From Curtobacterium sp. VKM Ac-1393 (GTDB lineage Bacteria; Actinomycetota; Actinomycetes; Actinomycetales; Microbacteriaceae): a DNA stretch of 64,000 bases. The position numbers were made by a program, and so were the translations under genes. Where the stretch lies: NCBI RefSeq assembly GCF_015350995.1, contig NZ_JADKRW010000003.1, positions 248,001 to 312,000 on the forward strand, written 5' to 3'. Position 1 is the stretch's first letter; each line of letters opens with the position of its first letter. The notes below the pieces were generated by a model. That model had not been told where the DNA came from. It was given only the letters and a program-made list of their open reading frames with translations, and did no database searches. This document shows positions 34,531-64,000 of this stretch, in pieces.

Positions 34531-34537
34531 GCGGACC

Positions 34538-34543
34538 ATCCTA
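34538..34543 (-). promoter_or_regulatory. -10 hexamer TAGGAT for metG-tatD-rsmA
   Basis: TAGGAT, 7-nt spacer, then ATG at 34530. Confidence 0.5.
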
Positions 34544-34591
34544 CGGGCGCACGGAACCCGGATGACGCGCGCGGCGGTGGACTGTGGAGAA

Positions 34592-34639
34592 CCGGATCCG
34601 GGAGGCCCGTGGCGGGCCCGCCCCGCGCCTCCCGTCCGG
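34592..34639. repeat. copy of the dispersed palindrome
   Basis: The copy holds GGGAGGCCCGTGGCGGGCCC (34600-34619), opposed by CGCGCCTCCCGTCCGG on the right. The arms are imperfect. It lies between the metG start and the rsmI stop. Confidence 0.75.
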
Positions 34640-34651
34640 CACTGCCGTCGT

Positions 34652-35473
34652 CTACCGCGCCGCGAGCGCGCCTTCGTACAGGTCGCGTTTCGACAGGCCG
34701 GTCGCATCAGCGACCGCCGCTGCGGCCTCCTTCATGCGCATGCCGGCGGCCACCCGCTCGAGCACGAGGCGGACCCCGTCGTCCAGCGTCGCTTCCTCCG
34801 TGGCCTCGGCCGCCCCGGCGACGACGATGCAGATCTCGCCCTTGACTCCTTCGGCGGCCCAGGAGGTGAGCTCGTCGAGCGGCCCACGACGGACCTCTTC
34901 GTAGAGCTTCGTGAGCTCGCGGCAGACCGCGGCTCGTCGGTCGCCCCCGAACCCCACGGCCATGTCGGCGAGCGTCTCGGCCAACCGGTGCGGCGACTCG
35001 AAGAAGACCATCGTGCGCTGCTCCCCCGCGAGCGCCTGGAATGCACGGCGGCGTTCCCCGCCCTTGCGCGTCGGGAACCCCTCGAAGGTGAACCGGTCCG
35101 TCGGCAGGCCCGAGACCGCGAGCGCCATGAGCACCGCCGACGGGCCGGGCAGCGCCGTGACGGTGACACCCGCGGCGGCCGCGGCCTCGACGAGCGGGAA
35201 GCCGGGGTCGCTGATCGCGGGCATGCCGGCGTCGGTGAGGACCACGACGTCCTGGTCGCGCGCGAGCTCGACGACCTCGGACGCCTTCGCCCGCTCGTTG
35301 TGCTCGTGCAGGGCGATGAGCCGCGGACGGTTCTCGATGCCGAGGGCGCGCATGAGGTGGATGGCGGTCCTGGTGTCCTCGGCCGCGACGACCGTGGCGT
35401 TGGAGAGGGTCTCGACGAGACGGCGCGAGGCGTCCCCGAGGTTGCCGATGGGCGTTGCTGCGAGGACGATCAC
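34652..35473 (-). CDS. rsmI: 16S rRNA 2'-O-ribose C1402 methyltransferase
   Basis: This 273-aa tetrapyrrole-methylase-fold enzyme 2'-O-methylates C1402 of 16S rRNA. It shows LAATPIGNLGDAS at the N-terminus, the AEDTRT motif, LTDAGMPAISDPG and the ALPGPSA loop. Start GTG at 35473, with GACAAT 6 nt upstream. It is divergent from the protein mannosyltransferase gene, the common arrangement in actinobacteria. Confidence 0.95.
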   Translation of the reverse strand: MIVLAATPIGNLGDASRRLVETLSNATVVAAEDTRTAIHLMRALGIENRPRLIALHEHNERAKASEVVELARDQDVVVLTDAGMPAISDPGFPLVEAAAAAGVTVTALPGPSAVLMALAVSGLPTDRFTFEGFPTRKGGERRRAFQALAGEQRTMVFFESPHRLAETLADMAVGFGGDRRAAVCRELTKLYEEVRRGPLDELTSWAAEGVKGEICIVVAGAAEATEEATLDDGVRLVLERVAAGMRMKEAAAAVADATGLSKRDLYEGALAAR

Positions 35474-35557
35474 GCCCCCATTGTCCCCGCACGGCGATGC
35501 CGGCGCGGCCACGCGGCGCGAGCACCGCGGTCGCAGCGCGGACATACCCCCGATCCG

Positions 35558-35563
35558 TAGGAT
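35558..35563 (+). promoter_or_regulatory. -10 hexamer TAGGAT for pmt
   Basis: TAGGAT, 8-nt spacer, then ATG at 35572. Confidence 0.5.
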
Positions 35564-35571
35564 GCTCAGCG

Positions 35572-37203
35572 ATGACCAGCGAGCTGACCGACGACCGCAC
35601 GGCCGTGCCCGACGGGCCGGTCGGCTCGCGGCTCGACGACTGGTGGGGGCGGGTGCTCTCCACCGCGCAGCGCGTCGCGGTGTGGCGCTGGGCCGGACCG
35701 ATCGCGGTGACGCTGCTCGCCGCCGTGCTCCGCCTGGCGAACCTCGGGAACCCGCACTCGCTCGTGTTCGACGAGACCTACTACGTCAAGGACGGCTGGT
35801 CGATCGTCCACCTCGGCTACGAGGGCACCTGGCCGGCGAACCCGAGCAGCGACTCCGCCCCGACGACCGACGACCGGTTCTCGAGCGGTGAGACGGACAT
35901 CTTCACCAGCGCCGCGGAGTTCATCGCGCACCCGCCGCTCGGCAAGTACCTGATCGGGCTCGGCATGCTCCTGTTCGGGGCGGACAACTCGTTCGGCTGG
36001 CGGTTCGCCGTCGCCGTGCTCGGCATCGCGACGGTCTTCCTGACCGCGGTGATCGCCCGCTCGCTGTTCCGCTCGACCCTGGTCGGCACCCTCGCCGGCG
36101 GCCTGCTCGCCGTCGACGGGCAGGCGATCGTGATGTCCCGCGTGACGCTGCTCGACGGCATCCTGACGTTCTTCGTCGTGCTCGGGTTCGGGGCGCTCCT
36201 GTTCGACCGGCGCCAGAGTCAGCGGCGGCTCGACGACTGGGTCGCGGAGCGGATCGCTGCCGGCCGGGACACCCTGTGGGGGCCCGTGCTCTGGTGGCGT
36301 CCGTGGCTGTTCGCGATGGGCCTGACGATGGGGCTGGCCACCGCGACGAAGTGGTCGGGGATGTACTTCCTGGCGTTCTTCGCCGTCTACTCGGTGCTGA
36401 GCGACATGATGATGCGCCGCCGTGCGGGCGTGGAGTTCTGGTCGTCGAGTGCGCTGCTGCAGCAGGCTCCGGTGTCGTTCCTGCTCACCGTGCCGATCGC
36501 CGCCGTCACCTACGTCGCGTCGTGGACGGGCTGGTTCGTGTCGAAGGACGGCTGGGACCGGAACTGGCTGGCCTCCGGCGGGGAACGCTGGACCGGTCTG
36601 CTCGGACGGGTGCCGGACAGCCTGCAGAACTGGTGGCACTACCAGTCGGAGATCTACAACTTCAACATCGGCCTGCACACGCCGCACTCGTACCAGGCGA
36701 ACCCACTGCTCTGGCTCGTGATGCAGCGCCCCACGTCGATGTTCTACGTCGGCACCGACGCCGGGCAGGACGGCTGCTCGGCCAGTCGCTGCGGTGAGGC
36801 CATCACCGGCGTCGCGAACCCGTTCATCTGGTACGCGGCGGTCATCGCGACGGTGGCGCTGCTCGTGCTCTGGATCCTGCGCCGGCAGTGGCAGTACGGC
36901 TTCGTGCTGCTCGGCGTCGCCGCGGGCTACCTGCCGTGGCTGATGTACGTCAACCGGACGGTCTTCCAGTTCTACACGATCGCCTTCGAGCCCTTCATGG
37001 TGATGGCGCTGGCTGCCGCGATCGGGTTGCTGCTGGGGTCACGGACGGACCCACGGCCCCGACGGACCCGCGCGATCGTCTGGGTCGGCGTGTACCTGGT
37101 CGTGGTCGTGCTCGCATCGGCGTACTGGTACCCGATGTGGACGGCGATCCAGGTGCCGTGGGACTTCATCCGGTCGCACTACTGGCTGCCGAGCTGGCTG
37201 TAG
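35572..37203 (+). CDS. pmt: polyprenyl-phosphate-mannose protein O-mannosyltransferase
   Basis: The 543-aa GT39 protein has the Asp-Glu motif in the first loop (LVFDETYYVKDGWS) and AHPPLGKYLIGLG. About ten helices follow, and the C-terminal half carries the conserved YNFNIGLHTPHSYQANPLLW block. It mannosylates secreted proteins at Ser/Thr, using polyprenyl-phosphate-mannose outside the membrane. It is full length for actinobacterial Pmt. Confidence 0.95.
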   Translation: MTSELTDDRTAVPDGPVGSRLDDWWGRVLSTAQRVAVWRWAGPIAVTLLAAVLRLANLGNPHSLVFDETYYVKDGWSIVHLGYEGTWPANPSSDSAPTTDDRFSSGETDIFTSAAEFIAHPPLGKYLIGLGMLLFGADNSFGWRFAVAVLGIATVFLTAVIARSLFRSTLVGTLAGGLLAVDGQAIVMSRVTLLDGILTFFVVLGFGALLFDRRQSQRRLDDWVAERIAAGRDTLWGPVLWWRPWLFAMGLTMGLATATKWSGMYFLAFFAVYSVLSDMMMRRRAGVEFWSSSALLQQAPVSFLLTVPIAAVTYVASWTGWFVSKDGWDRNWLASGGERWTGLLGRVPDSLQNWWHYQSEIYNFNIGLHTPHSYQANPLLWLVMQRPTSMFYVGTDAGQDGCSASRCGEAITGVANPFIWYAAVIATVALLVLWILRRQWQYGFVLLGVAAGYLPWLMYVNRTVFQFYTIAFEPFMVMALAAAIGLLLGSRTDPRPRRTRAIVWVGVYLVVVVLASAYWYPMWTAIQVPWDFIRSHYWLPSWL

Positions 37204-37251
37204 CGCGCGTCGGGTGTCGGCCCGGCGCCGTGGTCGCGACCGGTCCGGCGC

Positions 37252-37267
37252 TCTGGTCGTGACCAGA
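37252..37267. terminator. short perfect palindrome downstream of pmt
   Basis: TCTGGTC (37252-37258), GT, GACCAGA (37261-37267). It is followed within 6 nt by a copy of the dispersed palindrome, between convergent pmt and the TetR gene. Confidence 0.4.
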
Positions 37268-37272
37268 CCGTC

Positions 37273-37314
37273 GGACGGGAGGCGTGGGTCGGCACCGCCA
37301 CGGGCCTCCGGTCC
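37273..37314. repeat. copy of the dispersed palindrome
   Basis: GGACGGGAGGCGTGGGTCGG (37273-37292) faces CCGCCACGGGCCTCCGGTCC (37295-37314), with a few mismatches. Confidence 0.75.
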
Positions 37315-37358
37315 GGAGGCGGCTCGGACCACGGCCCGGCCCGAGTCGCCGGGACGCG

Positions 37359-38027
37359 TCAGGACTGCGCGTGCAGCGCGCGCTCGATGGACTCGCGGTC
37401 GAGCGGGTCGCCGACCATGCTCGCGGCGGTCGCGCTCTCGGTCTGCGGCAGGACGCCCTCGATGAGGAGTTCGGCGTACCGGCGCCAGGCGTTCGGGTCG
37501 TGCTCGCGGGTGGCGTCCGCGACGGCGCCCACCATGGCGGTGAGCATCGGCAGGTCGCGGTAGTCGAACCCGGCCCGGACGACCCCCGCGGTATCGGCAC
37601 GACCGATGATCGCGGAGACCTGGCGCTCGAGCCGGTCCCGCTCCTGCACGATCGACGGACGGGCCTTGCCGGCGCGCACGATGGCGTCGGCGAGCGCACG
37701 GTCGCGCGCCCGGAACTCGAACACACCGGTGAGGTAGACGCGCAGCGCCTCACGCGGATCCACGACTTCGGCTGCACGGGCCGCGGCGTCGTTCATCGCC
37801 TCGAACTTGGTTGCGAGCAGCGCCTCGATCAAGGAGTCCTTGTCGGCGAAGCGGCGGTAGACGGTGCCGACGCCGACGCCGGCTTCGTGCGCGATGTCGT
37901 TGAGGGTGACCGACAAGCCGCGCTCCGCGAAGCACTTGCGAGCCGTCTGCAGGATCAACTCGCGGTTGCGTGCCGCATCGGCGCGCAGCGGGCGCTCGAG
38001 GTCGGGCGCGGACTCGGTGGTGCTCAC
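37359..38027 (-). CDS. TetR-family repressor
   Basis: The 222-aa protein has the TetR HTH (RELILQTARKCFAERGLSVTLNDIAHEAGVGVGTVYRRFADKDSLIEAL, about 22-70) and an all-helical ligand domain. It is divergent from an MFS efflux gene, so it probably represses the pump and itself until a drug-like ligand binds. GTG start at 38027. Confidence 0.92.
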   Translation of the reverse strand: MSTTESAPDLERPLRADAARNRELILQTARKCFAERGLSVTLNDIAHEAGVGVGTVYRRFADKDSLIEALLATKFEAMNDAAARAAEVVDPREALRVYLTGVFEFRARDRALADAIVRAGKARPSIVQERDRLERQVSAIIGRADTAGVVRAGFDYRDLPMLTAMVGAVADATREHDPNAWRRYAELLIEGVLPQTESATAASMVGDPLDRESIERALHAQS

Positions 38028-38086
38028 GGTGCCGAACCTAGTTGAACTTTCTGGGAATAAGTGGATGCGGACCTTCCGTTTCGGTC

Positions 38087-38118
38087 TACACTGTCCACAA
38101 ACGGATGCCGTGCATCCG
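38087..38118 (+). promoter_or_regulatory. promoter and operator of the MFS pump
   Basis: TACACT (38087-38092) can serve as -10 for the pump. CGGATGC (38102-38108) and GCATCCG (38112-38118) form a perfect 7-bp dyad over the expected transcript start. A related GGATGC lies at 38063-38068. This is a plausible TetR operator. Confidence 0.5.
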
Positions 38119-38195
38119 CTTGGATCCTCCCTCTTCGAAACGCCCGACGGCGCGCGCTTCGTGCTCCCCCTCCAACCTTCTCGAAGGAGGCTGCC

Positions 38196-39737
38196 GTGAC
38201 GGCAGAACACACCGTGCCGACCCCCACCGGGGCCGCACCCACGACCACTGGCACCACCCCCGCCAAGCCCAACCACCGTTGGATCGCCCTGGCGGTCATC
38301 GCCCTCGCGCAGCTGATGGTCGTGCTCGACGCCACCATCGTGAACATCGCGCTCCCCTCGGCCCAGGCCGACCTGGGGTTCGGCACCGACCAGCGCCAGT
38401 GGATCGTCACCGCGTACTCGCTGGCGTTCGGCTCGCTCCTGCTGCTCGGCGGACGCCTCGGCGACCTGTTCGGGCGGAAGAACACCTTCATCATCGGTCT
38501 GGTCGGCTTCGCCGTCGCATCGGTCCTCGGTGGTCTCGCCGACTCGTTCGGTCTGCTCGTCGCCGCCCGGGCACTGCAGGGTGTGTTCGGCGCGCTCCTC
38601 GCCCCGAGCGCCCTCGGCATGCTGACCACGACCTTCCGCGACCCGAAGGAGCGCGGTCGTGCGTTCGGCATCTTCGGGTCCATCGCCGGTTCCGGTGCGG
38701 CCATCGGCCTGCTGCTCGGCGGCGTGCTGACCGAGTACGCCTCGTGGCGCTGGTGCCTCTACGTCAACGTGGTCTTCGCCGTGCTCGGCGTGATCGGTGC
38801 GCTCGTCTTCATGGAGAAGCCGCCGAAGGTCGACCGTCCGCGCATCGACGTCCTCGGGGTCATCACGATCACCGCTGGTCTGGTCGGCGTCGTCTACGGG
38901 TTCTCGAATGCCGAGACGAACGGCTGGGACTCCCCCGTCACCATCGCGATGCTCGCCGCCGGCGTGCTGCTGATCGCCGCGTTCGTGTTCATCGAGACGC
39001 GCGTGGCGCACCCGCTGCTCCCCCTGCGGGTCGTGCTCGACCGCGACCGTGGCGGATCGTTCATCGCCATCGGCCTGGTGGCGATCGGCATGTTCGGCAT
39101 CTTCCTGTTCCTGACCTACTACCTCGAGCAGACCCTCGGGTTCAGCTCGCTGCAGACCGGTCTGGCGTTCCTGCCGATGCCGCTGTCGATCATGGTCTCG
39201 GCGACGCAGATCGGTGGGCGACTGCTGCCCCGCGTCGGCCCGAAGATCCTGATCTTCGCCGGTGGCCTGGTCGCCGCGATCGGCCTGCTCCTGCTGCTGC
39301 GCACCGACCTCGACAGCTCCTACGCAGGAACCGTCCTGCCGGCACTGATCGTCATCGGTCTCGGCATGGGCACGATCTTCTCGTCCGCGATGAACACCGC
39401 GACGACCGGGGTCGCCCGTGCCGACGCCGGTGTGGCCTCGGCGACGGTCAACACCATGCAGCAGATCGGCGGCTCGATCGGCACGGCACTCCTGTCGACG
39501 ATCTTCGCCGACGTCGTGAAGAACAGCCTGTCCGGGCTGTCGGCGGCGCCCACGAAGCTGCAGCAGGCGCAGGCCACGCTCGACGGGTACCACGTGGCGT
39601 TCGGCATCTCGGCCGGGGTGCTCGTGCTCGTCGCCCTCGCCGGTGGCCTGCTCATCAACCGGCAGTCGGTGCGGCTCGACCGGCTTGCACACGCTGCGTC
39701 CACGACGACCGGGAGCATCCCCGCCGCCGCACACTGA
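38196..39737 (+). CDS. MFS drug efflux transporter (DHA2, 14-helix type)
   Basis: The 513-aa transporter has about fourteen helices, the motif A-like GGRLGDLFGRKN, and the DHA2 signatures LDATIVNIALPS and QWIVTAYSLAFGSLLLLGG. These pumps export drugs or toxic compounds using the proton gradient. GTG at 38196 has AAGGAGG 5 nt upstream. It is divergent from its likely regulator. Confidence 0.93.
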   Translation: MTAEHTVPTPTGAAPTTTGTTPAKPNHRWIALAVIALAQLMVVLDATIVNIALPSAQADLGFGTDQRQWIVTAYSLAFGSLLLLGGRLGDLFGRKNTFIIGLVGFAVASVLGGLADSFGLLVAARALQGVFGALLAPSALGMLTTTFRDPKERGRAFGIFGSIAGSGAAIGLLLGGVLTEYASWRWCLYVNVVFAVLGVIGALVFMEKPPKVDRPRIDVLGVITITAGLVGVVYGFSNAETNGWDSPVTIAMLAAGVLLIAAFVFIETRVAHPLLPLRVVLDRDRGGSFIAIGLVAIGMFGIFLFLTYYLEQTLGFSSLQTGLAFLPMPLSIMVSATQIGGRLLPRVGPKILIFAGGLVAAIGLLLLLRTDLDSSYAGTVLPALIVIGLGMGTIFSSAMNTATTGVARADAGVASATVNTMQQIGGSIGTALLSTIFADVVKNSLSGLSAAPTKLQQAQATLDGYHVAFGISAGVLVLVALAGGLLINRQSVRLDRLAHAASTTTGSIPAAAH

Positions 39738-39884
39738 CGCGTCAGCGGGGCGGTGCCGACTCGATCCGACGATCGCGATGTCGTGCGACGACCACCATGT
39801 CGTTCCGAGTCGACGCACAAGCCTCCACACGCGCCCCGGTTGCGCAGTGTGTCGGTTTCCCTGTCACCCGTCAGTGGTCCGCAT

Positions 39885-39890
39885 TATCGT
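39885..39890 (+). promoter_or_regulatory. -10 hexamer TATCGT for the sulfurtransferase gene
   Basis: TATCGT, 7-nt spacer, then ATG at 39898. Confidence 0.45.
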
Positions 39891-39897
39891 GTGCGGC

Positions 39898-40770
39898 ATG
39901 GCCCCCGTCCTGACCTCGCCGCTCGTGTCGACGCAGTGGCTCGCCGACCACCTCGGTGGTGACGAGCTCGTCGTCCTCGACGCTTCGGTACACACGGTGG
40001 GGACCGGCCTCGAGACGACGTGGCGCTCCGCGGTCGACTCCTACGAGCGGCGTGGACACGTCCCCGGAGCCCGGTTCGCCGACCTCGTGGACGAGTTCTC
40101 CACACCCGGTGCCGAGGTGCCCTTCACCCGGCCGAGTGCCGAGCGGTTCGAAACCGCCGCCGGTGACCTGGGCGTGACGAACGCCTCGACGGTCGTGGTC
40201 TACGACGACCGCGTCGGCGAGTGGTCGGCACGGCTGTGGTGGATCTTCCGGTCGTTCGGGTTCGACTCGGTCGCGGTCCTCGACGGCGGCTTCACGAAGT
40301 GGCGCGACGAGGGCCGCCCGGTCCGCGTCGGAGCCCTCCGCCAGGCAGCTGGTGCAGCGAAGGCGCCCGACGACGACAGCGCCTTCCTCGCCGGTGAAGA
40401 GCGCCCGCTGTGGGCCGACCGCGCCCGGGTCCGCCGTGCCGTGACGGGCGACGAGCCGGCGGCCCTGGTGTTCGCCGCGCCCGAGGCCTCACTCGGCACC
40501 GACCACGCACCGATCATCCCCGGCAGCACCCCGATCACGGTGGACACCCTGGTCGACCCGGAGACGAACGCGTACCTGCGCGGACCGAAACTGGCCGCGG
40601 CGTTCGCAGCCGTCGTCGGCGAGGACGAGATCGTCACCTACTGCGGGGTCGGCAGCGCTGCGTGCGTCGATGCGTTGGCACTCACGGTGCTCGGCCACGA
40701 CAACGTCACCGTGTACGACGGCTCGCTGCTGGACTGGTGGCGACACGAACCCGAGGCGCTGGCGTCCTGA
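39898..40770 (+). CDS. thiosulfate/mercaptopyruvate sulfurtransferase (tandem rhodanese)
   Basis: The 290-aa protein has two rhodanese domains (about 8-140 and 165-285). The C-terminal one has the active-site loop YCGVGSAAC, with Cys as persulfide carrier. The loop lacks the CRxGxxR of classical thiosulfate sulfurtransferases and is closer to the mercaptopyruvate type. VYDDRVGEWSARLWWIFRSFG is typical of the inactive N-terminal domain. Confidence 0.9.
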   Translation: MAPVLTSPLVSTQWLADHLGGDELVVLDASVHTVGTGLETTWRSAVDSYERRGHVPGARFADLVDEFSTPGAEVPFTRPSAERFETAAGDLGVTNASTVVVYDDRVGEWSARLWWIFRSFGFDSVAVLDGGFTKWRDEGRPVRVGALRQAAGAAKAPDDDSAFLAGEERPLWADRARVRRAVTGDEPAALVFAAPEASLGTDHAPIIPGSTPITVDTLVDPETNAYLRGPKLAAAFAAVVGEDEIVTYCGVGSAACVDALALTVLGHDNVTVYDGSLLDWWRHEPEALAS

Positions 40771-51652: not shown

Positions 51653-52579
51653 TCAGCCCTTCACGGCGCCGGTCAGGACACCCTTGGCGAAGTGCCGCTG
51701 CAGGAACGGGTAGAGGATGAGGATGGGGACGATCGAGACGACGAGGATCGCCATCTGGATAGACGCCTGCGGGGGCAGCGCGTCGGAGCTCGTGCCGAGG
51801 TCGGCGCCGCCGAGCTGCGCGTTGTTGATCACGTAGGTGCGGAGGACCAGCTGCAGCGGCCACTTCGCGGTGTCGTTGATGTAGAGCAGGGCGTTGAAGA
51901 AGGCGTTCCAGTAGCCGACCGCGTAGAACAGCCCGATGACGGCGAGGACGGCCTTCGACAGCGGGAGCACGATCCGCAGGAAGACGCCGAAGTCACCGGC
52001 GCCGTCGATGCGGGCGCTCTCGATGAGCTCTCGCGGGATCGCCATGAAGAACGAGCGCATCACGATCACGTTGAACGCGCTGAGCGCCGTCGGCAGGATG
52101 AGCGCCCAGTAGGAGTCGAGCAGGCCGAACTGCTTGACCACGAGGTAGTTCGGGATGAGCCCCGGCGCGAACAGCAGGCTGACCAGCACGAGACCCAGGA
52201 CCACGCCGTGTCCGTAGGATCCCGGCCGGCTCAGCGCGTACGCCAGCATCGCGGTGACGAACAGGCTGATCAGGGTGCCGACCGTGGTGATGCCGACACT
52301 GACGAGCAGTGCCCGGGTGACGACGCCACCGGCGAAGATGCTCTCGTAGGCACTGAAGTCGAGCCCGGTCGGCCACATCACGAAGCCTCCGGCGCCGTTG
52401 ACCTGGCTGGAGGACGCGACGCTCGTCGAGACGATACCGAGGAACGGCAGCAGGACGACCAGGCAGATCACGAGCAGGACGAACCCGGTCAGCAGCCGAC
52501 CGGGCAGCGGTGGGGCGTCCAGCGGGCGGTGCTTCCGGGTGGTCCCCGCGGGCACGGTCACGCTCCGGGTGGCGCTCAT
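51653..52579 (-). CDS. carbohydrate ABC permease (LplC/YtcP type)
   Basis: The 308-aa permease has six helices and the EAA loop ELIESARIDGAGDFGVFLRIVLPLSKAV. The C-terminal FLQRHFAKGVLTGAVKG is the hallmark of LplC-like permeases. ATG at 52579 overlaps the stop of the partner permease (ATGA). No ATPase gene is nearby; such importers usually share one MsiK-like ATPase. Confidence 0.93.
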   Translation of the reverse strand: MSATRSVTVPAGTTRKHRPLDAPPLPGRLLTGFVLLVICLVVLLPFLGIVSTSVASSSQVNGAGGFVMWPTGLDFSAYESIFAGGVVTRALLVSVGITTVGTLISLFVTAMLAYALSRPGSYGHGVVLGLVLVSLLFAPGLIPNYLVVKQFGLLDSYWALILPTALSAFNVIVMRSFFMAIPRELIESARIDGAGDFGVFLRIVLPLSKAVLAVIGLFYAVGYWNAFFNALLYINDTAKWPLQLVLRTYVINNAQLGGADLGTSSDALPPQASIQMAILVVSIVPILILYPFLQRHFAKGVLTGAVKG

Positions 52580-53565
52580 CGCGACTCCTTCTGGTAGACG
52601 CCCGCTTCGCCGAAGACGTGCGCGAGCTTGTTGGCGCCGAGGACGAGCAGCACGCCGACGACGCCCTTGACGAGCCCGACGGCCGCGGCGACACCCCACT
52701 GCCCGCCGAGCACACCGTTGTTGTAGACGTACGTGTCGAGGACCTCGCTGGCCGCACGACCGACCGCGGCCTGCTGCAAGAGAATCTGCTCGAACCCGAC
52801 GGTGAGCGAGTCACCGAGACGCAGGATGAGCAGCAGGATGATGATGCCGCGCATGCCCGGCAGCGTGACGTGCCAGAGCTGCCGCCAGCGCGAAGCGCCG
52901 TCCATCTTCGCCGCCTCGTACAGGCTGGCGTCGATCGAGCTGAGGACGGCGAGGAACAGGATCGTCGCCCAGCCGGTGTCCTTCCAGATCACCTGGCTGG
53001 TGAGCAGGGCGATGAACCCTCCGGGGTTGCCGAGGAAGTCGATCGCGTCACCGCCCGCGGCACGGATCGCGTTGTTCACGAGCCCGGAACCGCCGAGGAT
53101 CTGCTGGAACACGGCGACGACGATCACCCACGACAGGAAGTGCGGCAGGTACAGGATCGACTGCACGACGCCCTTGATCCGCTCGGACAGCAGCGAGTTG
53201 AGCATGAGCGCCAGGATGATCGGCGCGGGGAACACGAACACGACCTGCACGAGGGTGATCACGAGGGTGTTCCGGAGCGCCCCGAGGAACTCGCCGTTGC
53301 CGTCGAACACCACCGAGAAGTTCTCGAACCCGACCCAGGGGCTGCGGCCGAGCGGGACGAACGGCAGGTACTCCTGGAACGCGATGAGGTTCCCGAGCAG
53401 CGGCAGGTAGTGGAACCCGAGCAGCAGGGCGACTCCCGGCAGGCCCATCAGCAGCAGCACCCGGTCGCGGCGGATCCGCTGCCACGTGCTCCGTCGGCGG
53501 AGCCCGGGGTCGGGTGGTGGTGCGGTGTGCGCGGTGGTCGTCGCGCGGACGTCGAGCTTCGTCAC
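52576..53565 (-). CDS. carbohydrate ABC permease (LplB type)
   Basis: The 329-aa permease has the long N-terminus, PGVALLLGFHYLPLLGNLIAFQEY, and the EAA loop SLYEAAKMDGASRWRQLWHVTLPGM. It pairs with the LplC-type permease. GTG at 53565 has GGAGGAGG upstream. A LacI-type operator lies 60-90 nt before its start, so the divergent LacI regulator probably controls it. Confidence 0.93.
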   Translation of the reverse strand: MTKLDVRATTTAHTAPPPDPGLRRRSTWQRIRRDRVLLLMGLPGVALLLGFHYLPLLGNLIAFQEYLPFVPLGRSPWVGFENFSVVFDGNGEFLGALRNTLVITLVQVVFVFPAPIILALMLNSLLSERIKGVVQSILYLPHFLSWVIVVAVFQQILGGSGLVNNAIRAAGGDAIDFLGNPGGFIALLTSQVIWKDTGWATILFLAVLSSIDASLYEAAKMDGASRWRQLWHVTLPGMRGIIILLLILRLGDSLTVGFEQILLQQAAVGRAASEVLDTYVYNNGVLGGQWGVAAAVGLVKGVVGVLLVLGANKLAHVFGEAGVYQKESR

Positions 53566-53621
53566 TCGGTGGCCTCCTCCGTTGGATTCCTGCAGCGACC
53601 CTGGCGTGCGGAGTTGCAACG

Positions 53622-53648
53622 TGGCAATCCGTTGCCAAACGTTTCCAT
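53622..53648. promoter_or_regulatory. LacI-type operator between the importer and its regulator
   Basis: TGGCAATCCGTTGCCA (53622-53637) is a perfect 6-bp dyad. The overlapping TGCCAAACGTTTCCAT (53633-53648) fits the LacI/GalR operator shape with a central CG. GTTGCAAC (53613-53620) is another small palindrome. Confidence 0.6.
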
Positions 53649-53716
53649 CGTTGTAACGCTCCAGTGAGCGCACACCCGCGGCCACGCACGACGACTCCAC
53701 CGGAGACCGGCCGCGC

Positions 53717-53722
53717 TACGCT
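53717..53722 (+). promoter_or_regulatory. -10 hexamer TACGCT for the LacI gene
   Basis: TACGCT, 7-nt spacer, then ATG at 53730. Confidence 0.5.
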
Positions 53723-53729
53723 CGTCCCG

Positions 53730-54737
53730 ATGCGCGCAACCGTGCGGGACGTGGCCACCCTCGCCGGGGTGTCGCCGAAGACCGTCTCCAACGTCATCAA
53801 CGGCGGCGTCGTGGTGCGCCCGGAGACCCGCGAGCGCGTCGAGCGGGCCGTCGCCGAACTCGACTACGTGCCGAACCTGTCCGCCCGCGGGCTGCGGAAC
53901 GGCCGCTCCGGTGCGATTGCCCTGACCCTTCCCGAGATGGGCAGCGCCTACTCCGCCGAACTCGCGCAGTGGTTCGTCGAACTCGCCCGCGAGCGCGGAT
54001 GGGTCGTCCAGCTCGACCAGACCGGCAACGACCCGGCCCGCGAGCGCGAACTCGTCTCACGAGCCCGCGCCCACCTCGTCGACGGCCTCGTGCTCAACCC
54101 GGTGTCGCTCAGCGCGAGCGTCCTGGCCTCGACCGAGGGGCTGCCGCCGACCGTCGTGATCGGTGAGGTCGAGCCCGAGCACGTCGACCAGGTGCACGTC
54201 GACAGCCGGGCCGCCGCCGAGCAGGTCACCGCCTACCTGGTGTCCCGGGGCCACCGCCGGATCGCCGTCGTCGGTGCCGCCCGGGCATCAGAGCCCACCG
54301 CCACCAGCGAGCTGCGGGAGCGCGGGTACCTCGCTGCACTCGCCACTGCCGGGATCGAACCGGACCCGGCGCTGCGGGTGCCGCTGCCGTCCTGGACCAC
54401 GAGTTCGGCGGCGACGGCGTTCGCGGCCTGGCTCGACGAGCACCCCCTGCCCGACGCCGTGTTCGCGTTCACGGACTCGATCGCCTTCGGCGTGCTGCAC
54501 GTCCTGGCCGCCCGAGGTGTCCGCGTCCCCGAGGACGTCAGCGTCATCGGGTTCGACGACATCGACGGTGCGGCGTACGCGATCCCCGCGCTCAGCACGG
54601 TGTCGTTCGACCGGCGGGCGTTCGCGACGGCAGCGCTCGACCTGCTGACCCGACGGATCGAGGACCGGAGCCTGCCACCGGAGACCGTGGTGGTGCCGCA
54701 CCGCATCGTCGAGCGCGCGAGCGTCGCTGACCGCTGA
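53730..54737 (+). CDS. LacI-family transcriptional regulator
   Basis: The 335-aa protein has the LacI HTH and hinge (TVRDVATLAGVSPKTVSNVINGG, about 4-26, and the hinge near PNLSARGLR). A periplasmic-binding-like sugar-sensing domain follows (VSVIGFDDIDGAAYAIPALSTVSFDRRA). It probably represses the divergent Lpl-type importer until the sugar ligand binds. Confidence 0.94.
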   Translation: MRATVRDVATLAGVSPKTVSNVINGGVVVRPETRERVERAVAELDYVPNLSARGLRNGRSGAIALTLPEMGSAYSAELAQWFVELARERGWVVQLDQTGNDPARERELVSRARAHLVDGLVLNPVSLSASVLASTEGLPPTVVIGEVEPEHVDQVHVDSRAAAEQVTAYLVSRGHRRIAVVGAARASEPTATSELRERGYLAALATAGIEPDPALRVPLPSWTTSSAATAFAAWLDEHPLPDAVFAFTDSIAFGVLHVLAARGVRVPEDVSVIGFDDIDGAAYAIPALSTVSFDRRAFATAALDLLTRRIEDRSLPPETVVVPHRIVERASVADR

Positions 54738-58942: not shown

Positions 58943-59028
58943 GCGAAACTCCGTTTCACGACGGCGCTCCGGCTGAAAACGACATTCGCCGTTCACCTCC
59001 GGAGGCCGCCCCGTTCACCATCGCTGCA

Positions 59029-59034
59029 TAGCGT
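59029..59034 (+). promoter_or_regulatory. -10 hexamer TAGCGT for the RpiR gene
   Basis: TAGCGT, 6-nt spacer, then GTG-ATG at 59041. Confidence 0.5.
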
Positions 59035-59040
59035 TGCAGC

Positions 59041-59931
59041 GTGATGAAAATCAGTTCCGCCGCACCGGCAGACGTGAACACGACGTCCAACGCCACCGGC
59101 ATCGTCGAGCGCATCCGCGCCGAGCTCCCACGCTTCAGCCCGGCGGAGCGTCGGGTCGCCGACGTCGTGCTCCGCGACCCGCTCGACGTGATCCACCGGT
59201 CCGTCAGCGAGCTCGCCGCCGACGCCGACACCTCGCCGGCCACCGTCGTCCGCCTCTGCGCGAGCGTCGGGCTGCGCGGGTACCAGGAACTCAAGATCAC
59301 CCTGGCGAGCGAGTCCATCCCCGGCGAGCGCCGCGTGCTCGGTGACGTCGCCCCCGGGGACACCGTGGCGGACATCACCCACAAGGTGATGGACGGCACC
59401 GCCCGTGCCGTCGAGACGGCCTCGCGCGCAGTCGACACGGCGGCGCTCGAGCGCATCGCACGCCTGCTGCTCGGCGCGCGCCGGGTGGTGTTCGGCGCGG
59501 TCGGCACGTCCGCACCGCTCGCCCTCGACACCGCCTACCGCTTCGTCACCGTCGGCATCGACGCATCGTTCGCGCCCGACGTGCACACGCAGCACGTGAC
59601 CGCGCGGATGCTCGGTGCCGGTGACGTGTTCTTCGCGATCAGCCACACCGGATCGACCTTCGAGACGCTCGCGACCGCGCGCGCCGCGACGGCCGCCGGG
59701 GCCACGACGGTCGCGCTGACGAGCTTCTCGCGCTCCCCGCTCACCGAGCTCGCCGACGTGACCGTGGTCGCCGGGAGCGCTGAGACGAACTACCGGGTCG
59801 AGGCGATGGCGAGCCGCATCGTGCACCTCGCGGTCCTGGACGCACTGTTCGTCGTCCTGTCCCAGCTCGGTCCGACGAGCGAGTCCCGTCTCGCACTCAC
59901 CGAGGACGTCCTCATCGAGCACCGCATCTAG
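59041..59931 (+). CDS. MurR/RpiR-family regulator
   Basis: The 296-aa protein has the N-terminal HTH_6 (RIRAELPRFSPAERRVADVVLRDP, SVSELAADADTSPATVVRLCASVGLRGYQELKI; about 20-85) and a C-terminal SIS domain (about 130-260, FGAVGTSAPLALDTAYRF, FFAISHTGSTFETLATARAA). SIS domains sense phosphosugars. It lies 117 nt upstream of the phosphoesterase operon on the same strand and is its likely regulator, sensing a phosphorylated sugar or polyol. Confidence 0.93.
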   Translation: MMKISSAAPADVNTTSNATGIVERIRAELPRFSPAERRVADVVLRDPLDVIHRSVSELAADADTSPATVVRLCASVGLRGYQELKITLASESIPGERRVLGDVAPGDTVADITHKVMDGTARAVETASRAVDTAALERIARLLLGARRVVFGAVGTSAPLALDTAYRFVTVGIDASFAPDVHTQHVTARMLGAGDVFFAISHTGSTFETLATARAATAAGATTVALTSFSRSPLTELADVTVVAGSAETNYRVEAMASRIVHLAVLDALFVVLSQLGPTSESRLALTEDVLIEHRI

Positions 59932-60048
59932 CCCTCCTCCGCTCGCCCCTCCCGCCCCACCTGCGCCAGGCCCGCGGCACCCCGCCACCGGGTCGGTCCG
60001 GCGCGCCCGGAACCCGTCCCCTCCGCCCCCCACCACAGGAGCCTCCCC

Positions 60049-62268
60049 ATGCACGGAATCGTCGTCCACCACGACGGCCGCCCCGCCGAAGGCATCGCCG
60101 TCTCGACCGGCGCAGTCGTCACCACGACCGGCGCCGACGGCCGCTTCACCCTCGACCGCCAGCCCGAGCACGGCGCGTTCGTCGTGCTGTCCCGTCCGAC
60201 CGGGTCCACCGCCACCCCCTGGTGGCACCGCACCCCCGCGGACGACGACACCGAGCTGCGCTTCGTGCTCGTGCCCGAGGACCAGCCGCTGCCGTACGAG
60301 TTCGTCCACCTCACCGACACCCACATGACCACCCCGGAGGTCGTCGCCTCCGGCCGCGACGACTTCGGTCTGTACCGCGAGGGCAGCCTGCCCGCGCAGG
60401 TCCGCTCCTTCCTCGCCGCGCTGCCCGAGCGCGCGCCGCTCGCCCGCCGGGTGTTCGTGACCGGAGACCTGGTCGACCACGGGCTGCCCGAGGAGTACGC
60501 GGCGTTCACCGAGGTGCTCGCCGAGTCCCCGGTCCCCGTGCACGTCGTCCCCGGCAACCACGACCACATGAACGGCCGGCACGGCAGCGTCGTCAGCCGG
60601 AACGACTACCTGACGAACACCGGCGACCCCGCGCTCTACGAGGAGTGGATCGGTCCCCGTTGGTACAGCTTCGACGTCGCCGGACTCCACGTCGTCGCGA
60701 TGGACTGGCACTCGCACGAGCTCGGCATCGACCACGAGGTCCAAAACGCCTGGGTGCGCGCCGACCTCGCGCGTCTCGAGCACGGTTCGCCGTACATCCT
60801 GCTGTTCCACGACCAGCCGGCGCATTCGCTCGTCGACGAACTCCCGTGGCAGCCCGTCGCCGCGTTCTCGGGGCACTGGCACACCAGCCGCGTGGTCGAC
60901 GTCGACGGCACGCTGCACGTCAACAGCCCGACCTCGTTCTTTGCGAGCCTCGACTACGGCCCGCCGGCGTTCCGGCACGTGACCTGGGACGGCGCGGGCA
61001 TCACGCTCCGCACCGAGACCGTCGTCGACGGCCCCGTCCCCACGGCCCTGGCCGACGTCCGCACGGCGACGTTCGCCGCGGCGTCGGTACGGTCCGACGA
61101 CGACGCGCTGCTGTGGTCCGCCACGTCCGCCGGAGCCGGTCACCGGCAGCCGGCGGCCGTGCAGGGCGACACCCTGTTCGTCGGCGGTCAGGTCGAGGAC
61201 CGCGCTGCCGGCTGGGTCGAGGCCTTCGACCTGGTGACCGGCGCGCTCCGCTGGCGCACCGCGACCGGGGCCGCCGTGAAGACCGCCCCGGCACCGGCCG
61301 GCGACGTGGTCGTGGCCGCCGAGGTGTCGGGCGACCTCGTCGGTCTCGACGCCGACACCGGGGCGGAGCGCTGGCGGTTGCCCTCGAGCGACCCGTACCG
61401 CCGGTTCGCGTGGGGCGCACCGACCGTGCGCGACGGTGTCGTGTTCCTCGGCGACCAGTCCGACCTGCGCGCCGTCGACGTGCACACCGGCGAGAAGCTG
61501 TGGCACCGCACGGACCTGTCGCCCCACCACAACCTGGTCAACCACGCCGCACCGCTCGTCGTCGGCGACCTGCTCGTGATGGGCTTCTGGCCGACGCCGA
61601 CCGACCCGATCGGTCTCGACGCACGCACCGGCGCCGACGTCTGGCACCGCGGTGAGCTCGACGGCGACGACCCGTTCACGGCCCTGAAGCGGCTGCTCAT
61701 CATGGGCACCGCCGCGTTCGACGCCGGTCGCGACGCGGTCCTGATGCCGGCCCATGGACACACCACCGCGCTCGACCGCGCCACCGGACGCACCCGGTGG
61801 ACCGCCGCGCACGAGGGCGGTTTCAGCCCGGCAACCCCGGTCGTCACCGACCGCGGGTACGTCGTGACGGTGACCGGTCACGGCATCCGCATGGTCGACC
61901 CGGACGACGGCAGCACGGTCTGGGACGCTCCCGTCACGGGGGATGCACCGTTCCCGATGGGCTCGTACACGAAGGCCCCGCACCCGGTCATCGCGCCGCC
62001 GGTGCTCGTCGGCGACCAGCTGCTGCTGCCGGGGCTCGACGGCACGGTCCGTCGCTTCGACCTGGACGGTGTCGAGGTCGGCCGGAGCCAGCTCGCCTCT
62101 CCGATCGCCGCGCCGCTCGTGGTCGTCGGCGACCGGGTGGTGGCCGTGGCGACCGACGGGACGGTCATGGCCTTCGACGCCGCACGGCTCGCCACCGCGA
62201 CGACCGTGCCGTCCGTCCCCGCCGCGGCGGGCTCCACGCGCGCACCGGACGCCGAGGTGGCACGGTGA
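60049..62268 (+). CDS. metallophosphoesterase fused to a PQQ-like beta-propeller
   Basis: The 739-aa protein has three parts. An N-terminal beta-sandwich of Metallophos_N type (about 1-75). A calcineurin-like phosphoesterase (about 83-310) with every metal motif: D90-x-H92, GD(139-140), GNHD (169-172), H254 in LLFHD and GHWH (275-278). A PQQ-type propeller (about 340-720) with repeats such as FDLVTGALRWRT, LDADTGAERWRL, LDARTGADVWHR and LDRATGRTRWTA. There is no signal peptide or membrane helix, so a cytoplasmic place is predicted, which is unusual for PQQ-like propellers. AGGAG precedes the ATG. It overlaps the permease gene (GTGA) in a presumed uptake operon and may hydrolyse an imported phosphate ester. 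Confidence 0.88.
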   Translation: MHGIVVHHDGRPAEGIAVSTGAVVTTTGADGRFTLDRQPEHGAFVVLSRPTGSTATPWWHRTPADDDTELRFVLVPEDQPLPYEFVHLTDTHMTTPEVVASGRDDFGLYREGSLPAQVRSFLAALPERAPLARRVFVTGDLVDHGLPEEYAAFTEVLAESPVPVHVVPGNHDHMNGRHGSVVSRNDYLTNTGDPALYEEWIGPRWYSFDVAGLHVVAMDWHSHELGIDHEVQNAWVRADLARLEHGSPYILLFHDQPAHSLVDELPWQPVAAFSGHWHTSRVVDVDGTLHVNSPTSFFASLDYGPPAFRHVTWDGAGITLRTETVVDGPVPTALADVRTATFAAASVRSDDDALLWSATSAGAGHRQPAAVQGDTLFVGGQVEDRAAGWVEAFDLVTGALRWRTATGAAVKTAPAPAGDVVVAAEVSGDLVGLDADTGAERWRLPSSDPYRRFAWGAPTVRDGVVFLGDQSDLRAVDVHTGEKLWHRTDLSPHHNLVNHAAPLVVGDLLVMGFWPTPTDPIGLDARTGADVWHRGELDGDDPFTALKRLLIMGTAAFDAGRDAVLMPAHGHTTALDRATGRTRWTAAHEGGFSPATPVVTDRGYVVTVTGHGIRMVDPDDGSTVWDAPVTGDAPFPMGSYTKAPHPVIAPPVLVGDQLLLPGLDGTVRRFDLDGVEVGRSQLASPIAAPLVVVGDRVVAVATDGTVMAFDAARLATATTVPSVPAAAGSTRAPDAEVAR

Positions 62269-63203
62269 CCGCCGTGGTGGAGGCGACCACCGCCGCACCG
62301 CGACCCGACGCGCCGGAGGTGCGCCGCGCCTCCCGGTCGACGCGCCGCCGCTCCCTGACACCGGTCCTGTTCCTGCTGCCCGCCGGGACCGCGATGACGG
62401 TCTTCGTCATCGTGCCGGCGCTGCTGTCCTTCGTGGCGAGCTTCTTCTCGGTGCCGCTCGCCGGCGGTGCCTGGCGGTTCGTCGGACTCGACAACTACCT
62501 GCGCATCGCGACCGACACGACGGTGCAGCGGGCGATCGTGAACACCGTCGCCTACGCCGCCATGACGATCGTGCCGAGCCTCGTCATCGGACTCGTGCTC
62601 GCACTGCTCGCCGAGTCGGTGTCCCGCGGCCGCCCCTTCGTCCGCACCGCGCTGTTCCTGCCGATGACCGCCAACCTGGTCGCGATGGCCGTCGTGTTCC
62701 GCTGGGTCTTCGCGTACCAGGGCGGATTCGTGAACCAGGTGCTCGGCGTCGTCGGCGTCGAACCGGTGAACTGGCTCGGCGACACGCACACCTCACTGGT
62801 CACGGTTGCCCTGGTGGGCGTCTGGCGCAGCGCCTCGTTCAGCATGATGATCTTCATCGCCGGCTTCGCGACCATCCCCGGCAGCGTGCAGGAGGCCGCG
62901 CGCGCCGAGGGCATCCGCGGGTTCCGGAAACTCCGGCACATCACGCTCCCGATGATGCGCCCGACCGTCGTGTTCGCGACCGTGCTGGCGATCCTCGGCT
63001 CCGTGCAGGTCTTCGACACCATCAACGTGATGACCCAGGGCGGCCCGCTCTACTCGACCGAGACGATCCTGACCGAGACGTACAAGCTCGGCTTCCAGTA
63101 CTTCGACCTCGGGTCGGCGTCCGCGCTGTCCTTCCTGCTGCTGGTCGTGCTCGTCGCGATCGGCCTCGTGCAGCGCCGGGTCCTCGCCGGGGGCGACCGA
63201 TGA
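62265..63203 (+). CDS. ABC sugar/phosphodiester importer permease (UgpA/MalF type)
   Basis: The 312-aa permease has six helices, LFLLPAGTAMTVFVIVPALLSF at the N-terminus and the EAA loop SVQEAARAEGIRGFRKLRHITLPMM. GTG at 62265 overlaps the phosphoesterase stop. The UgpA-like type suits glycerol-phosphate or sugar uptake. The solute-binding protein would lie right of the window. Confidence 0.92.
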   Translation: MTAVVEATTAAPRPDAPEVRRASRSTRRRSLTPVLFLLPAGTAMTVFVIVPALLSFVASFFSVPLAGGAWRFVGLDNYLRIATDTTVQRAIVNTVAYAAMTIVPSLVIGLVLALLAESVSRGRPFVRTALFLPMTANLVAMAVVFRWVFAYQGGFVNQVLGVVGVEPVNWLGDTHTSLVTVALVGVWRSASFSMMIFIAGFATIPGSVQEAARAEGIRGFRKLRHITLPMMRPTVVFATVLAILGSVQVFDTINVMTQGGPLYSTETILTETYKLGFQYFDLGSASALSFLLLVVLVAIGLVQRRVLAGGDR

Positions 63204-64000
63204 GCGCCGCGGTCCGGTCCCTCAAGTGGGTCCTCGTCGTCCTCGCGGTGGCGATCAGCCTGTTCCCGTTCTACTGGATGCTCCGCACCGCGCTCGCCCC
63301 GGCGACCGAGGTGTACGCCGACGGCATCTCGTTCCTGCCGACGTCGATCGACGGCTCGGCGTTCGTCCGGGCCTTCGAGCAGGCCGGGCTCGGCCGGGCC
63401 GTCGTCACCGGGGCGATCGTCACCGTCGCGATCCTCGTGCTGCAACTCATCACCTGCGTGCCCGCCGCCTACGTCCTGGCGAAGGTGCGGATGCGCGGCG
63501 CGGGCACCGGACTCGCGATCGTCCTCGGCTGCCTGCTCGTCCCGACCCAGGTCACCCTCGTGCCGCTGTTCGTCGGGGTGAACGTCGCCGGGCTCGGCGA
63601 CAGCATCGTCGGCCTCGTCCTGCCCTTCGCGACGAGCGCGTTCGGCATCTTCCTGCTGCGGCAGCAGATGCTCGCGATCCCGGACACCCTGCTCGAAGCG
63701 GCCCGCACCGACGGGCTCGGGCACTGGCAGGTCCTGCGCAAGGTGGTCGTGCCGATGGCCGGTCCCGGGATCGCCGCGTTCTCGGTCTTCTCGGTGTTCA
63801 CGCACTGGAACGACTACATGTGGCCGCTGCTGGTGTCCCGCTCCGCGTCGACCGTCACCCCGCCGCTCGCGCTGGCGCAGTTCCAGCAGGCCGACACCGG
63901 CATCGACTTCTCGGCCCTGGCCGCCGGCGCCGTGATCGTCACCGCCCCGGTCGTCATCCTCTTCCTCGTCGCCCAGCGCCGCTTCGTCCAGGGCATGAGC
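63200..64000 (+). CDS. ABC importer permease (UgpE/MalG type), 3' end cut by window
   Basis: ATG at 63200 overlaps the stop of the upstream permease (ATGA). The frame is open to the last base, giving 267 residues without a stop. It starts MSAAVRSLKWVLVVLAVAIS and has the EAA loop TLLEAARTDGLGHWQVLRKVVVPM. It ends ...AQRRFVQGMS, so only the last few residues of a normal 270-280 aa permease are missing. Confidence 0.9.
   Translation, partial: MSAAVRSLKWVLVVLAVAISLFPFYWMLRTALAPATEVYADGISFLPTSIDGSAFVRAFEQAGLGRAVVTGAIVTVAILVLQLITCVPAAYVLAKVRMRGAGTGLAIVLGCLLVPTQVTLVPLFVGVNVAGLGDSIVGLVLPFATSAFGIFLLRQQMLAIPDTLLEAARTDGLGHWQVLRKVVVPMAGPGIAAFSVFSVFTHWNDYMWPLLVSRSASTVTPPLALAQFQQADTGIDFSALAAGAVIVTAPVVILFLVAQRRFVQGMS

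Follow-up and report, generated by a model that had tools for sequence, protein, structure and literature searches.

What is the function of an operon that encodes a calcineurin-like phosphoesterase and a PQQ-type propeller in one polypeptide? The question is raised by the right end of a 64,000-nucleotide stretch of DNA from Curtobacterium sp. VKM Ac-1393 (assembly GCF_015350995.1, contig NZ_JADKRW010000003.1, positions 248,001 to 312,000 of the forward strand), which is called the window below. Our analysis indicated that this operon is real, conserved and coherent; it is undescribed within the literature searched and is probably a variant of the operons that import and cleave phosphodiesters. 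On balance we lean towards reading it as a cassette that scavenges one organophosphorus diester under phosphate starvation; this diester most likely carries a sugar or a polyol on one side. The material for this reading is the gene content, its conservation, the gene overlaps, the metal-site residues, the predicted eight-bladed fold and the promoter motifs with their controls.

A seven-gene operon around a fusion protein

The operon contains, in this order, genes for an RpiR regulator, the fusion of a metallophosphoesterase (MPE) with a propeller, UgpA-like and UgpE-like permeases, a solute-binding protein (SBP), a UgpC-like ATPase and a HAD-family hydrolase. The final three lie beyond the right edge of the window, directly downstream, where the original prediction had suggested looking for an SBP and further genes; they were read from the adjoining contig sequence and are given in window numbering. 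The features are as follows.

58944..58958, + strand: RpiR-type operator site 1 (CGAAACTCCGTTTCA), TGAAA-N5-TTTCA with at most one mismatch
58974..58988, + strand: RpiR-type operator site 2 (TGAAAACGACATTCG), degenerate with two mismatches, aligned as the second site and weaker than site 1
58991..59023, + strand: PHO-type box by motif geometry, with two GTTCACC heptamers (58991-58997 and 59013-59019) spaced by 22 bp; the box comprises three 11-bp units, of which the central one is degenerate
59029..59034, + strand: putative -10 TAGCGT, 9 nt past the second heptamer
59041..59931, + strand: RpiR/MurR-family regulator (HTH_6 and SIS, from Pfam; SIS loop SHTGST)
60049..62268, + strand: MPE/eight-bladed propeller fusion, 739 amino acids, cytoplasmic (Pfam, start comparison, model and fold matches)
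60049..60282, + strand: N-terminal beta domain of the fusion, MetallophosN-like, residues 1-78 (PF16371, 5.4e-7, 30.2 bits, under the gathering score of 35.6)
60292..61023, + strand: calcineurin-like phosphoesterase domain, residues 82-325, with a class III phosphodiesterase-type metal site (PF00149, 2.7e-10)
61099..62181, + strand: eight-bladed BamB/PQQ-type propeller, residues 351-711 (PF13360, PQQ_2, 2e-37; model, and fold matches with Z of about 34-37 for the best)
62265..63203, + strand: UgpA-like ABC permease (PF00528), overlapping the fusion gene by 4 bp
63200..64021 (63200..64000 within the window), + strand: UgpE-like ABC permease (PF00528), truncated by the window end
64088-65392, outside the window: SBP lipoprotein
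65389-66483, outside the window: UgpC-like ATPase
66480-67130, outside the window: HAD-family hydrolase

Overlaps of 4 bp occur at four of the six junctions (fusion/UgpA, UgpA/UgpE, SBP/ATPase and ATPase/HAD), and the remaining two are gaps of 117 bp between the RpiR and MPE genes and of 66 bp between the UgpE and SBP genes. The original prediction had placed an RpiR regulator before the fusion and had the UgpA/UgpE-like permeases co-translated with it; both the gene positions and the overlaps agree with that description. The regulator matches HTH_6 (2.5e-18) and SIS (1.7e-16) in Pfam and thus belongs to the RpiR/MurR family; its SIS loop, SH(T/S)GxT, is kept in all 15 aligned RpiR proteins. 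The best match of the ATPase is the UgpC model, at 330 bits under a cut-off of 432. The cassette holds no further catabolic genes, and neither a glycosidase nor a recognised gene for cleaving carbon-phosphorus (C-P) bonds was found among its genes. Elsewhere in the window, the open reading frame list alone gives another sugar-type permease pair adjoining a LacI-like regulator (51653-54737).

A contig search found 16 relatives: 14 named records contributed 15 fusion loci, and the remaining match (L025) covers only the propeller and was dropped before counting. Of the 17 distinct close loci, 15 contain all seven genes in this order as judged by tblastn; the set comprises the window, L045 and the relatives after removal of duplicates (L038 equals L016, and L040 equals L022 over the 2.6 kb compared), and Mycetocola lacteus and Leucobacter salsicius (L016, L022) are among its members. 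The two incomplete loci are L017, where the contig is cut, and L010, which has different neighbours. The latter is a second copy of the fusion in Cryobacterium Y11, a strain that holds a cassette at L013, and it is accompanied by a convergent UgpB-like importer and an RpiR gene. Genes from outside the cassette recur in at most four of 16 close loci, and the others among the top 25 listed recur in two, mostly the pair L020/L023; this count covers script-called genes only, with genes similar to cassette genes left out. Part of the gene calling relied on a home-made script based on codon usage; it overlooked the L022 cassette, which was found by tblastn. Frame breaks are present in L023 and, near its end, in L024; these two loci were excluded, unrepaired, from the protein alignments and were still counted in the tallies of operators, PHO boxes and gene order.

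The original prediction had named an assembly artefact as a possible source of the fusion. This is ruled out by the recurrence of the seven-gene cassette and of the fusion itself, which is present in the 15 loci and in additional genomes. Counting the window genome each time, the fusion was found in 2 of 297 genomes at the level of the order (E ≤ 1e-20), in 5 of 299 at the level of the family and in 5 of 396 at the level of the phylum (both E ≤ 1e-60); none of the six other genomes listed for the same genus contains it (E ≤ 1e-60). The fusion cassette is therefore an accessory trait. When SBP operons that lack the MPE were sought among the 396 genomes, both genomes with an SBP match also held the fusion.

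The N-terminal part of the fusion is a putative class III (GpdQ-like) metallophosphodiesterase, judged by its metal ligands and by its similarity to solved relatives. It carries the D-x-H / GD / GNHD / H / GH-x-H metal motif of class III metallophosphodiesterases, in the form in which the consulted portion of PMC4320098 prints it (D-x-H, GD, GNHD, H, GHxH). The seven ligand residues D90, H92, D140, N170, H254, H276 and H278 are invariant in all 16 aligned N-terminal regions (an alignment made without L012, L023, L024, L029 and L042-L044), which bears out the earlier claim that all metal ligands are present. The solved chains nearest to the N-terminal profile are 2dxl/2zo9 (1.5e-7), which we take to be the glycerophosphodiesterase GpdQ, followed by 3ib7 (9.1e-6) and 2hy1 (Rv0805; 1.2e-5), with best stretches of about 90-110 residues.

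The absence of an export signal, also part of the original prediction, was upheld. No upstream in-frame start exists for the fusion gene, and the in-frame stretch before it is rich in Pro and Arg. The start position is common to 14 of the 15 loci compared; in the exception, L024, an ATG lies five codons upstream. Within the first 60 residues of the fusion, hydrophobicity over 15-residue windows peaks at 1.18, compared with 2.21 for the SBP, the lipoprotein encoded in this operon. A missed signal peptide is ruled out by the lack of an upstream in-frame start together with the start codon shared across loci.

The AlphaFold2 model of the fusion (mean pLDDT 80.0, pTM 0.83) predicts a propeller from about residue 351 to 711. 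The PQQ type proposed earlier held, but not the blade number of about seven: the strand count on the model gives eight. Fold comparison with VIA-align, which covers mainly fusion residues 325-713 and hence the propeller rather than the MPE domain, returned near the top tetrathionate hydrolase (Z 37.4, root-mean-square deviation (rmsd) 2.2, 326 aligned), the designed propeller Cake8 (Z 37.0, rmsd 2.2, 311 aligned) and BamB (4xga; Z 35.8, rmsd 2.3, 320 aligned). PQQ dehydrogenases have a vicinal cysteine disulfide at the PQQ site. There is no cysteine among the 739 residues of the fusion and therefore this disulfide cannot form, which speaks against PQQ dehydrogenase chemistry; a PQQ dehydrogenase was rejected on this ground and because BamB, designed propellers and tetrathionate hydrolase lead the fold list. 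The fusion is also not BamB, the exported lipoprotein of the BAM complex: it has no signal or lipobox, and it scores 89 bits with the BamB model, for which the cut-off is 285. Compared with two aligned plasmid homologues, the window protein is 33-34% identical in the MPE domain and 24% in the propeller. Such faster divergence might be what is expected of a specificity part.

Two predicted inputs to the promoter

In the 5'->3' direction the region before the operon contains the two RpiR-type operators, the PHO-type box, the putative -10 and the RpiR gene. All motif patterns used below were defined after the sequences had been seen. The PHO-type geometry, with a spacing of 22 or 23, is found at two mismatches or fewer in 12 of 14 cassettes, the misses being L014 and L021, while none of 2524 random windows matched at three mismatches or fewer. 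By eye, the L022 promoter is similar. The only exact copy in the genome of the GTTCACC pair spaced by 22 bp lies before this operon; eight sites with one mismatch occur elsewhere, and the reversed control had no match in the genome.

A second line of evidence, independent of the cassette alignment, comes from the genes for phosphate uptake. The exact 11-bp repeat GTTCAYC-N4-GTTMAYC has its sole genome copy upstream of pstS, pstC, pstA and pstB, each of which scores over the cut-off of its curated model. In the pstS promoter a further degenerate unit lies, by eye, 9 nt before a TAnnnT, which is the spacing seen at the operon. The most conserved PHO motif of Streptomyces coelicolor is GTTCACC, and PHO boxes consist of 11-nt direct repeats (PMC4415409, in excerpt), and in Streptomyces glpQ promoters PhoP units overlap the -35 (PMC7866108, in excerpt). 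A Pho-type promoter is predicted for the operon. Only 6 nt separate the predicted -10 from the start codon of the RpiR gene, which would give a nearly leaderless transcript; this spacing is alike in most aligned cassettes.

The two operator sites are 30 bp apart and the pair covers 45 bp (58944-58988). TGAAA-gap-TTTCA at one mismatch or fewer is present upstream of the RpiR gene in 13 of 14 cassettes, with L020 as the miss and with L022 and L017 outside the set, and upstream of the fusion in both plasmid clusters examined (L028, L030; see below), where a weaker second copy can be seen by eye about 31 bp away. A gap of 4-8 was allowed and was 5 in every match; the same pattern occurred in 11 of 2511 random windows of 153 bp. 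A scan of the entire genome gives four sites for this pattern, including the one at the operon. For comparison, a preprint (PMC12713135, in part) reports that MurR of E. coli, a member of the RpiR family, is proposed to link two sites across 47 bp, and that NanR of Streptococcus binds TCTGAAAGTACTTTTAGA upstream of the polymerase site.

Substrate, mechanism and competing readings

In the reading we prefer, the SBP lipoprotein and the UgpA/UgpE/UgpC importer would take in the intact diester, and the two-metal phosphoesterase domain of the fusion would cut it in the cytoplasm, with the propeller probably recognising the non-phosphate part. The phosphorylated half would be the signal for the SIS domain of RpiR, and the HAD protein would probably remove its phosphate, leaving phosphate and ordinary alcohols. 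Transcription would respond to two inputs, phosphate hunger through the Pho-type box by the -10 and presence of the substrate through the two upstream RpiR operators. All these biochemical steps are inferred, and so are the substrate and the direction in which RpiR acts on transcription. Import followed by intracellular cleavage had been proposed before, and the cytoplasmic phosphoesterase, the importer and RpiR fit that proposal; the revised picture has eight blades and shows no sign of PQQ chemistry. Phosphorus scavenging is now favoured because the operon has its own SBP, ATPase and HAD as well as the predicted Pho-type promoter.

The gene context of seven distant fusions (L028, L029, L030 and L041-L044) was also examined. 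On plasmids of Rhodococcus sp. NJ-530 (L028) and Dietzia (L030) the fusion is followed by an RpiR gene whose product is 42-43% identical to that of the window, and the pair is divergent to a MetE-like gene and genes for a 2-oxoglutarate (2OG) oxygenase, a YaaH transporter, a PhyH protein and an HD protein. The PhyH and HD proteins of L028 match methylphosphonate hydroxylase and Phn-HD models, all under the curated cut-offs (Phn-HD 213.8 vs 214.6), and the HD protein matches the PhnZ and TmpB structures. Phosphorus genes are thus near four of the seven distant fusions: PhnY/PhnZ-like genes in L028 and L030, PhoX adjoining the fusion in L043 and, as a weak case, an importer in L042, where the fusion is shorter and follows the importer genes; the SBP and ATPase of this importer resemble aminoethylphosphonate models most, at scores under the cut-offs. 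In L041 a Liv-type ATPase lies upstream of the fusion and a Peripla_BP_6 protein downstream, the link being uncertain. In L029 the plasmid fusion, annotated only in part, lies among insertion sequences beside an IS3 transposase, and its stretch has no PhnY/PhnZ match.

Two further observations concern these loci. The stretches L028:5456-12996 and L030:5482-12996 share their gene set, with PhnY and PhnZ 80-85% identical and with the MetE-like enzyme and a second 2OG oxygenase alongside. The fusion in L044:2-4877 has as neighbours genes for an OmpR-type response regulator and a CYTH-CHAD protein and a MutT1-like gene, which are of kinds often associated with polyphosphate; this locus was not counted as phosphorus context.

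A tentative extension, in our view less likely than not, is that the fusions form a new family of propeller-gated phospho-/phosphonate-diesterases. The propeller would capture an imported sugar-bearing ester, the MPE would free phosphate or phosphonate, and one RpiR/operator module would couple this step to varied downstream chemistries, HAD in the cassettes and PhnY/PhnZ-like oxidation on the plasmids. If so, actinobacteria would gain access to an unrecognised pool of ester-linked phosphorus.

The rival proposal that the fusion hydrolyses phosphonate monoesters, for example of sugars, and passes the product to HAD here and to PhnY/PhnZ in the plasmid clusters, is unlikely in our view. It draws on the plasmid pairs of MPE and RpiR genes, which carry the operator pattern divergent to PhnY/PhnZ-like genes, on the aminoethylphosphonate-like importer of L042, and on PdeM, a class III phosphodiesterase with phosphonate-ester hydrolase activity (PMC4320098, in excerpt). 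The HAD protein, for which a single-sequence search of the PDB gave no match, retrieved ordinary HAD phosphatases in a profile search and, weakly, phosphonoacetaldehyde hydrolase; its PhnX-like match reaches 36 bits, where the cut-off is 219. PhnX works with a Schiff-base lysine, whereas K139, the only invariant lysine of the HAD protein, is taken as that of motif III. Moreover, the cassette has no recognised C-P cleaving gene, the PhnY/PhnZ-like matches are under their cut-offs, identity to the plasmid fusions is no more than 28%, and 24% in the propeller, and the third plasmid fusion, L029, lacks a PhnY/PhnZ match.

The binding protein bears on the possibility of a Ugp-type system, in which glycerophosphodiesters are imported, glycerol-3-phosphate is released and the propeller is a passive addition. 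The SBP model (mean pLDDT 77.7) has UgpB structures at the top of its fold list, that of E. coli with Z 34.8 (rmsd 2.9, 372 aligned) and that of M. tuberculosis with glycerophosphocholine at 34.7 (2.8, 368), and the nearest solved MPE is presumably GpdQ. However, these values are tied, within 1, with that of a cyclic maltosyl-maltose protein (Z 34.2, rmsd 3.2, 368 aligned), and the SBP sequence profile picks out sugar- or dinucleotide-binding proteins as its best PDB matches and ranks E. coli UgpB much lower (0.0027). With the UgpB model the SBP of the operon scores 21 bits compared with 157 for another locus of the genome (on contig C18), both under the cut-off of 411; on this score the SBP is ruled out as UgpB. 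Because that other locus matches so much better, plain glycerophosphodiesters, which were among the original candidates, are less likely, and we prefer a sugar-bearing diester as the ligand. An HAD would also seem superfluous for glycerol-3-phosphate. We consider a Ugp-type system quite unlikely.

Recycling of cell-wall or teichoic-acid-like fragments is more doubtful still. Here the imported molecule would be a short glycosyl-phosphate oligomer from the wall polymers of actinobacteria, held by the propeller and trimmed by the MPE. The record titles of all 15 fusion loci carry actinobacterial names, 51 polar or aromatic propeller residues are invariant among 14 close homologues, and an RpiR regulator is combined with an SBP akin to sugar-binding proteins. 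Against this, the cassette is accessory, the six other genomes of the genus that lack the fusion are all from walled organisms, and no glycosidase accompanies it. That the MPE is non-metabolic, as a nucleotide-signalling phosphodiesterase or importer regulator with the propeller as a sensing or scaffold part, is improbable: it resembles the cyclic nucleotide phosphodiesterases Rv0805 and SpdA, propellers often mediate protein contacts and the gene is co-translated with the permeases, but the importer types beside the family vary (Ugp-like; aminoethylphosphonate-like) and no ABC importer is annotated by the fusion in the two plasmid phosphonate clusters.

Several points weigh against the phosphate-starvation scavenging cassette itself. 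RpiR regulators also serve plain carbon catabolism. In the canonical HAD phosphatases a second Asp occupies a position that is Asn in the DWNGT motif of this HAD (invariant in 12 of 12 proteins; the aligned phosphatase 3mc1 has Asp), and the protein may therefore be slow, act differently or be no phosphatase. Since the fold match of the SBP to UgpB is tied with sugar-binding proteins, the protein may bind a sugar without charge. The sequences from which the PHO-type pattern was derived are also those in which it was counted, L014 and L021 fail, the middle unit is degenerate, and no GTTCACC pair was seen in the two plasmid upstream regions. The reversed operator pattern yields one site in the genome compared with the four real ones, and the 14 cassette promoters are related and not independent. 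Among the distant fusions, three of seven (L029, L041, L044) have no clear phosphorus neighbour, and L042 is a weak context, given that its importer is under all aminoethylphosphonate cut-offs and that its HAD passes the histidinol-phosphatase cut-off and may be unrelated.

Other gene sets were seen in the course of this comparison. At the C18 locus (about 34389-40291; L066:390-6292) the UgpA/E/B-like importer with the best UgpB match of the genome lies close to genes for a 2H-type phosphoesterase (2_5_RNA_ligase2) and a member of the inositol-monophosphatase family; GTTCACC and repeat-like units precede the 2H gene by eye, and the set looks like a second diester-scavenging set made from other enzymes. 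Beside it, L066:6424-12001 holds a GFO/IDH/MocA oxidoreductase, a ThuA-like gene and another importer with a regulator-like start. A plasmid of Sulfitobacter pontiacus (L031:8079-14046) has, in one run, a propeller-less MPE, an SBP, two permeases, a Y_phosphatase3 (tyrosine-phosphatase-like) protein and UgpC, and is an alphaproteobacterial set with the same logic and other parts.

Relation to known systems

By analogy, the closest working precedent is the acc (agrocinopine) operon of Agrobacterium, which comprises an importer, the phosphodiesterase AccF and the putative phosphatase AccG, and whose regulator AccR responds to the released sugar phosphate and not to the diester (PMC4526662, in excerpt). 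By gene type the present operon parallels it, with an ABC importer, a putative intracellular phosphodiesterase, a candidate phosphatase and a regulator, and an RpiR protein with a conserved SIS loop fits the acc logic. It differs from acc in its CUT1/Ugp-type importer, its RpiR/SIS regulator, the fusion of the MPE to a propeller and the predicted Pho-type box.

The Ugp system (ugpBAEC with UgpQ/GlpQ) is likewise controlled by phosphate limitation and linked to a phosphodiesterase (excerpts of PMC7866108 and PMC4415409). The operon has in common with it a UgpA/E/C-like importer, a linked putative phosphodiesterase and, as a prediction, control by phosphate limitation, whereas the MPE-propeller replaces the GDPD-type enzyme, the SBP is far from UgpB, and RpiR and HAD are added. 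With GpdQ, Rv0805 and PdeM the fusion shares the class III metal motif and close solved sequences, but has an extra N-terminal beta domain and the C-terminal eight-bladed propeller. That propeller has the eight-bladed PQQ-repeat fold of BamB and its relatives; unlike them it is cytoplasmic, fused to an enzyme and free of a lipobox. In the Xanthosan XanT/XanP system a sugar phosphodiester is imported and cleaved inside the cell for nutrition (PMC12807533, in excerpt). The likeness would lie in nutritional import and intracellular cleavage, with no sequence relation claimed; that system uses a TonB-dependent transporter, a 2H-phosphoesterase and an ROK regulator. The original prediction knew of no characterised pathway with this architecture; likewise, the titles and abstract starts listed by the searches of open-licence literature contained no description of the MPE-propeller architecture or of the cassette, which is weak evidence of absence.

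The operon would add a self-contained, apparently transferable bacterial route to phosphorus from intact diesters, and its predicted two-input promoter, combining phosphate hunger with product sensing, is directly testable. That some fusions are linked to phosphonate-oxidation-like genes hints at a wider family on the border between phosphate and phosphonate.

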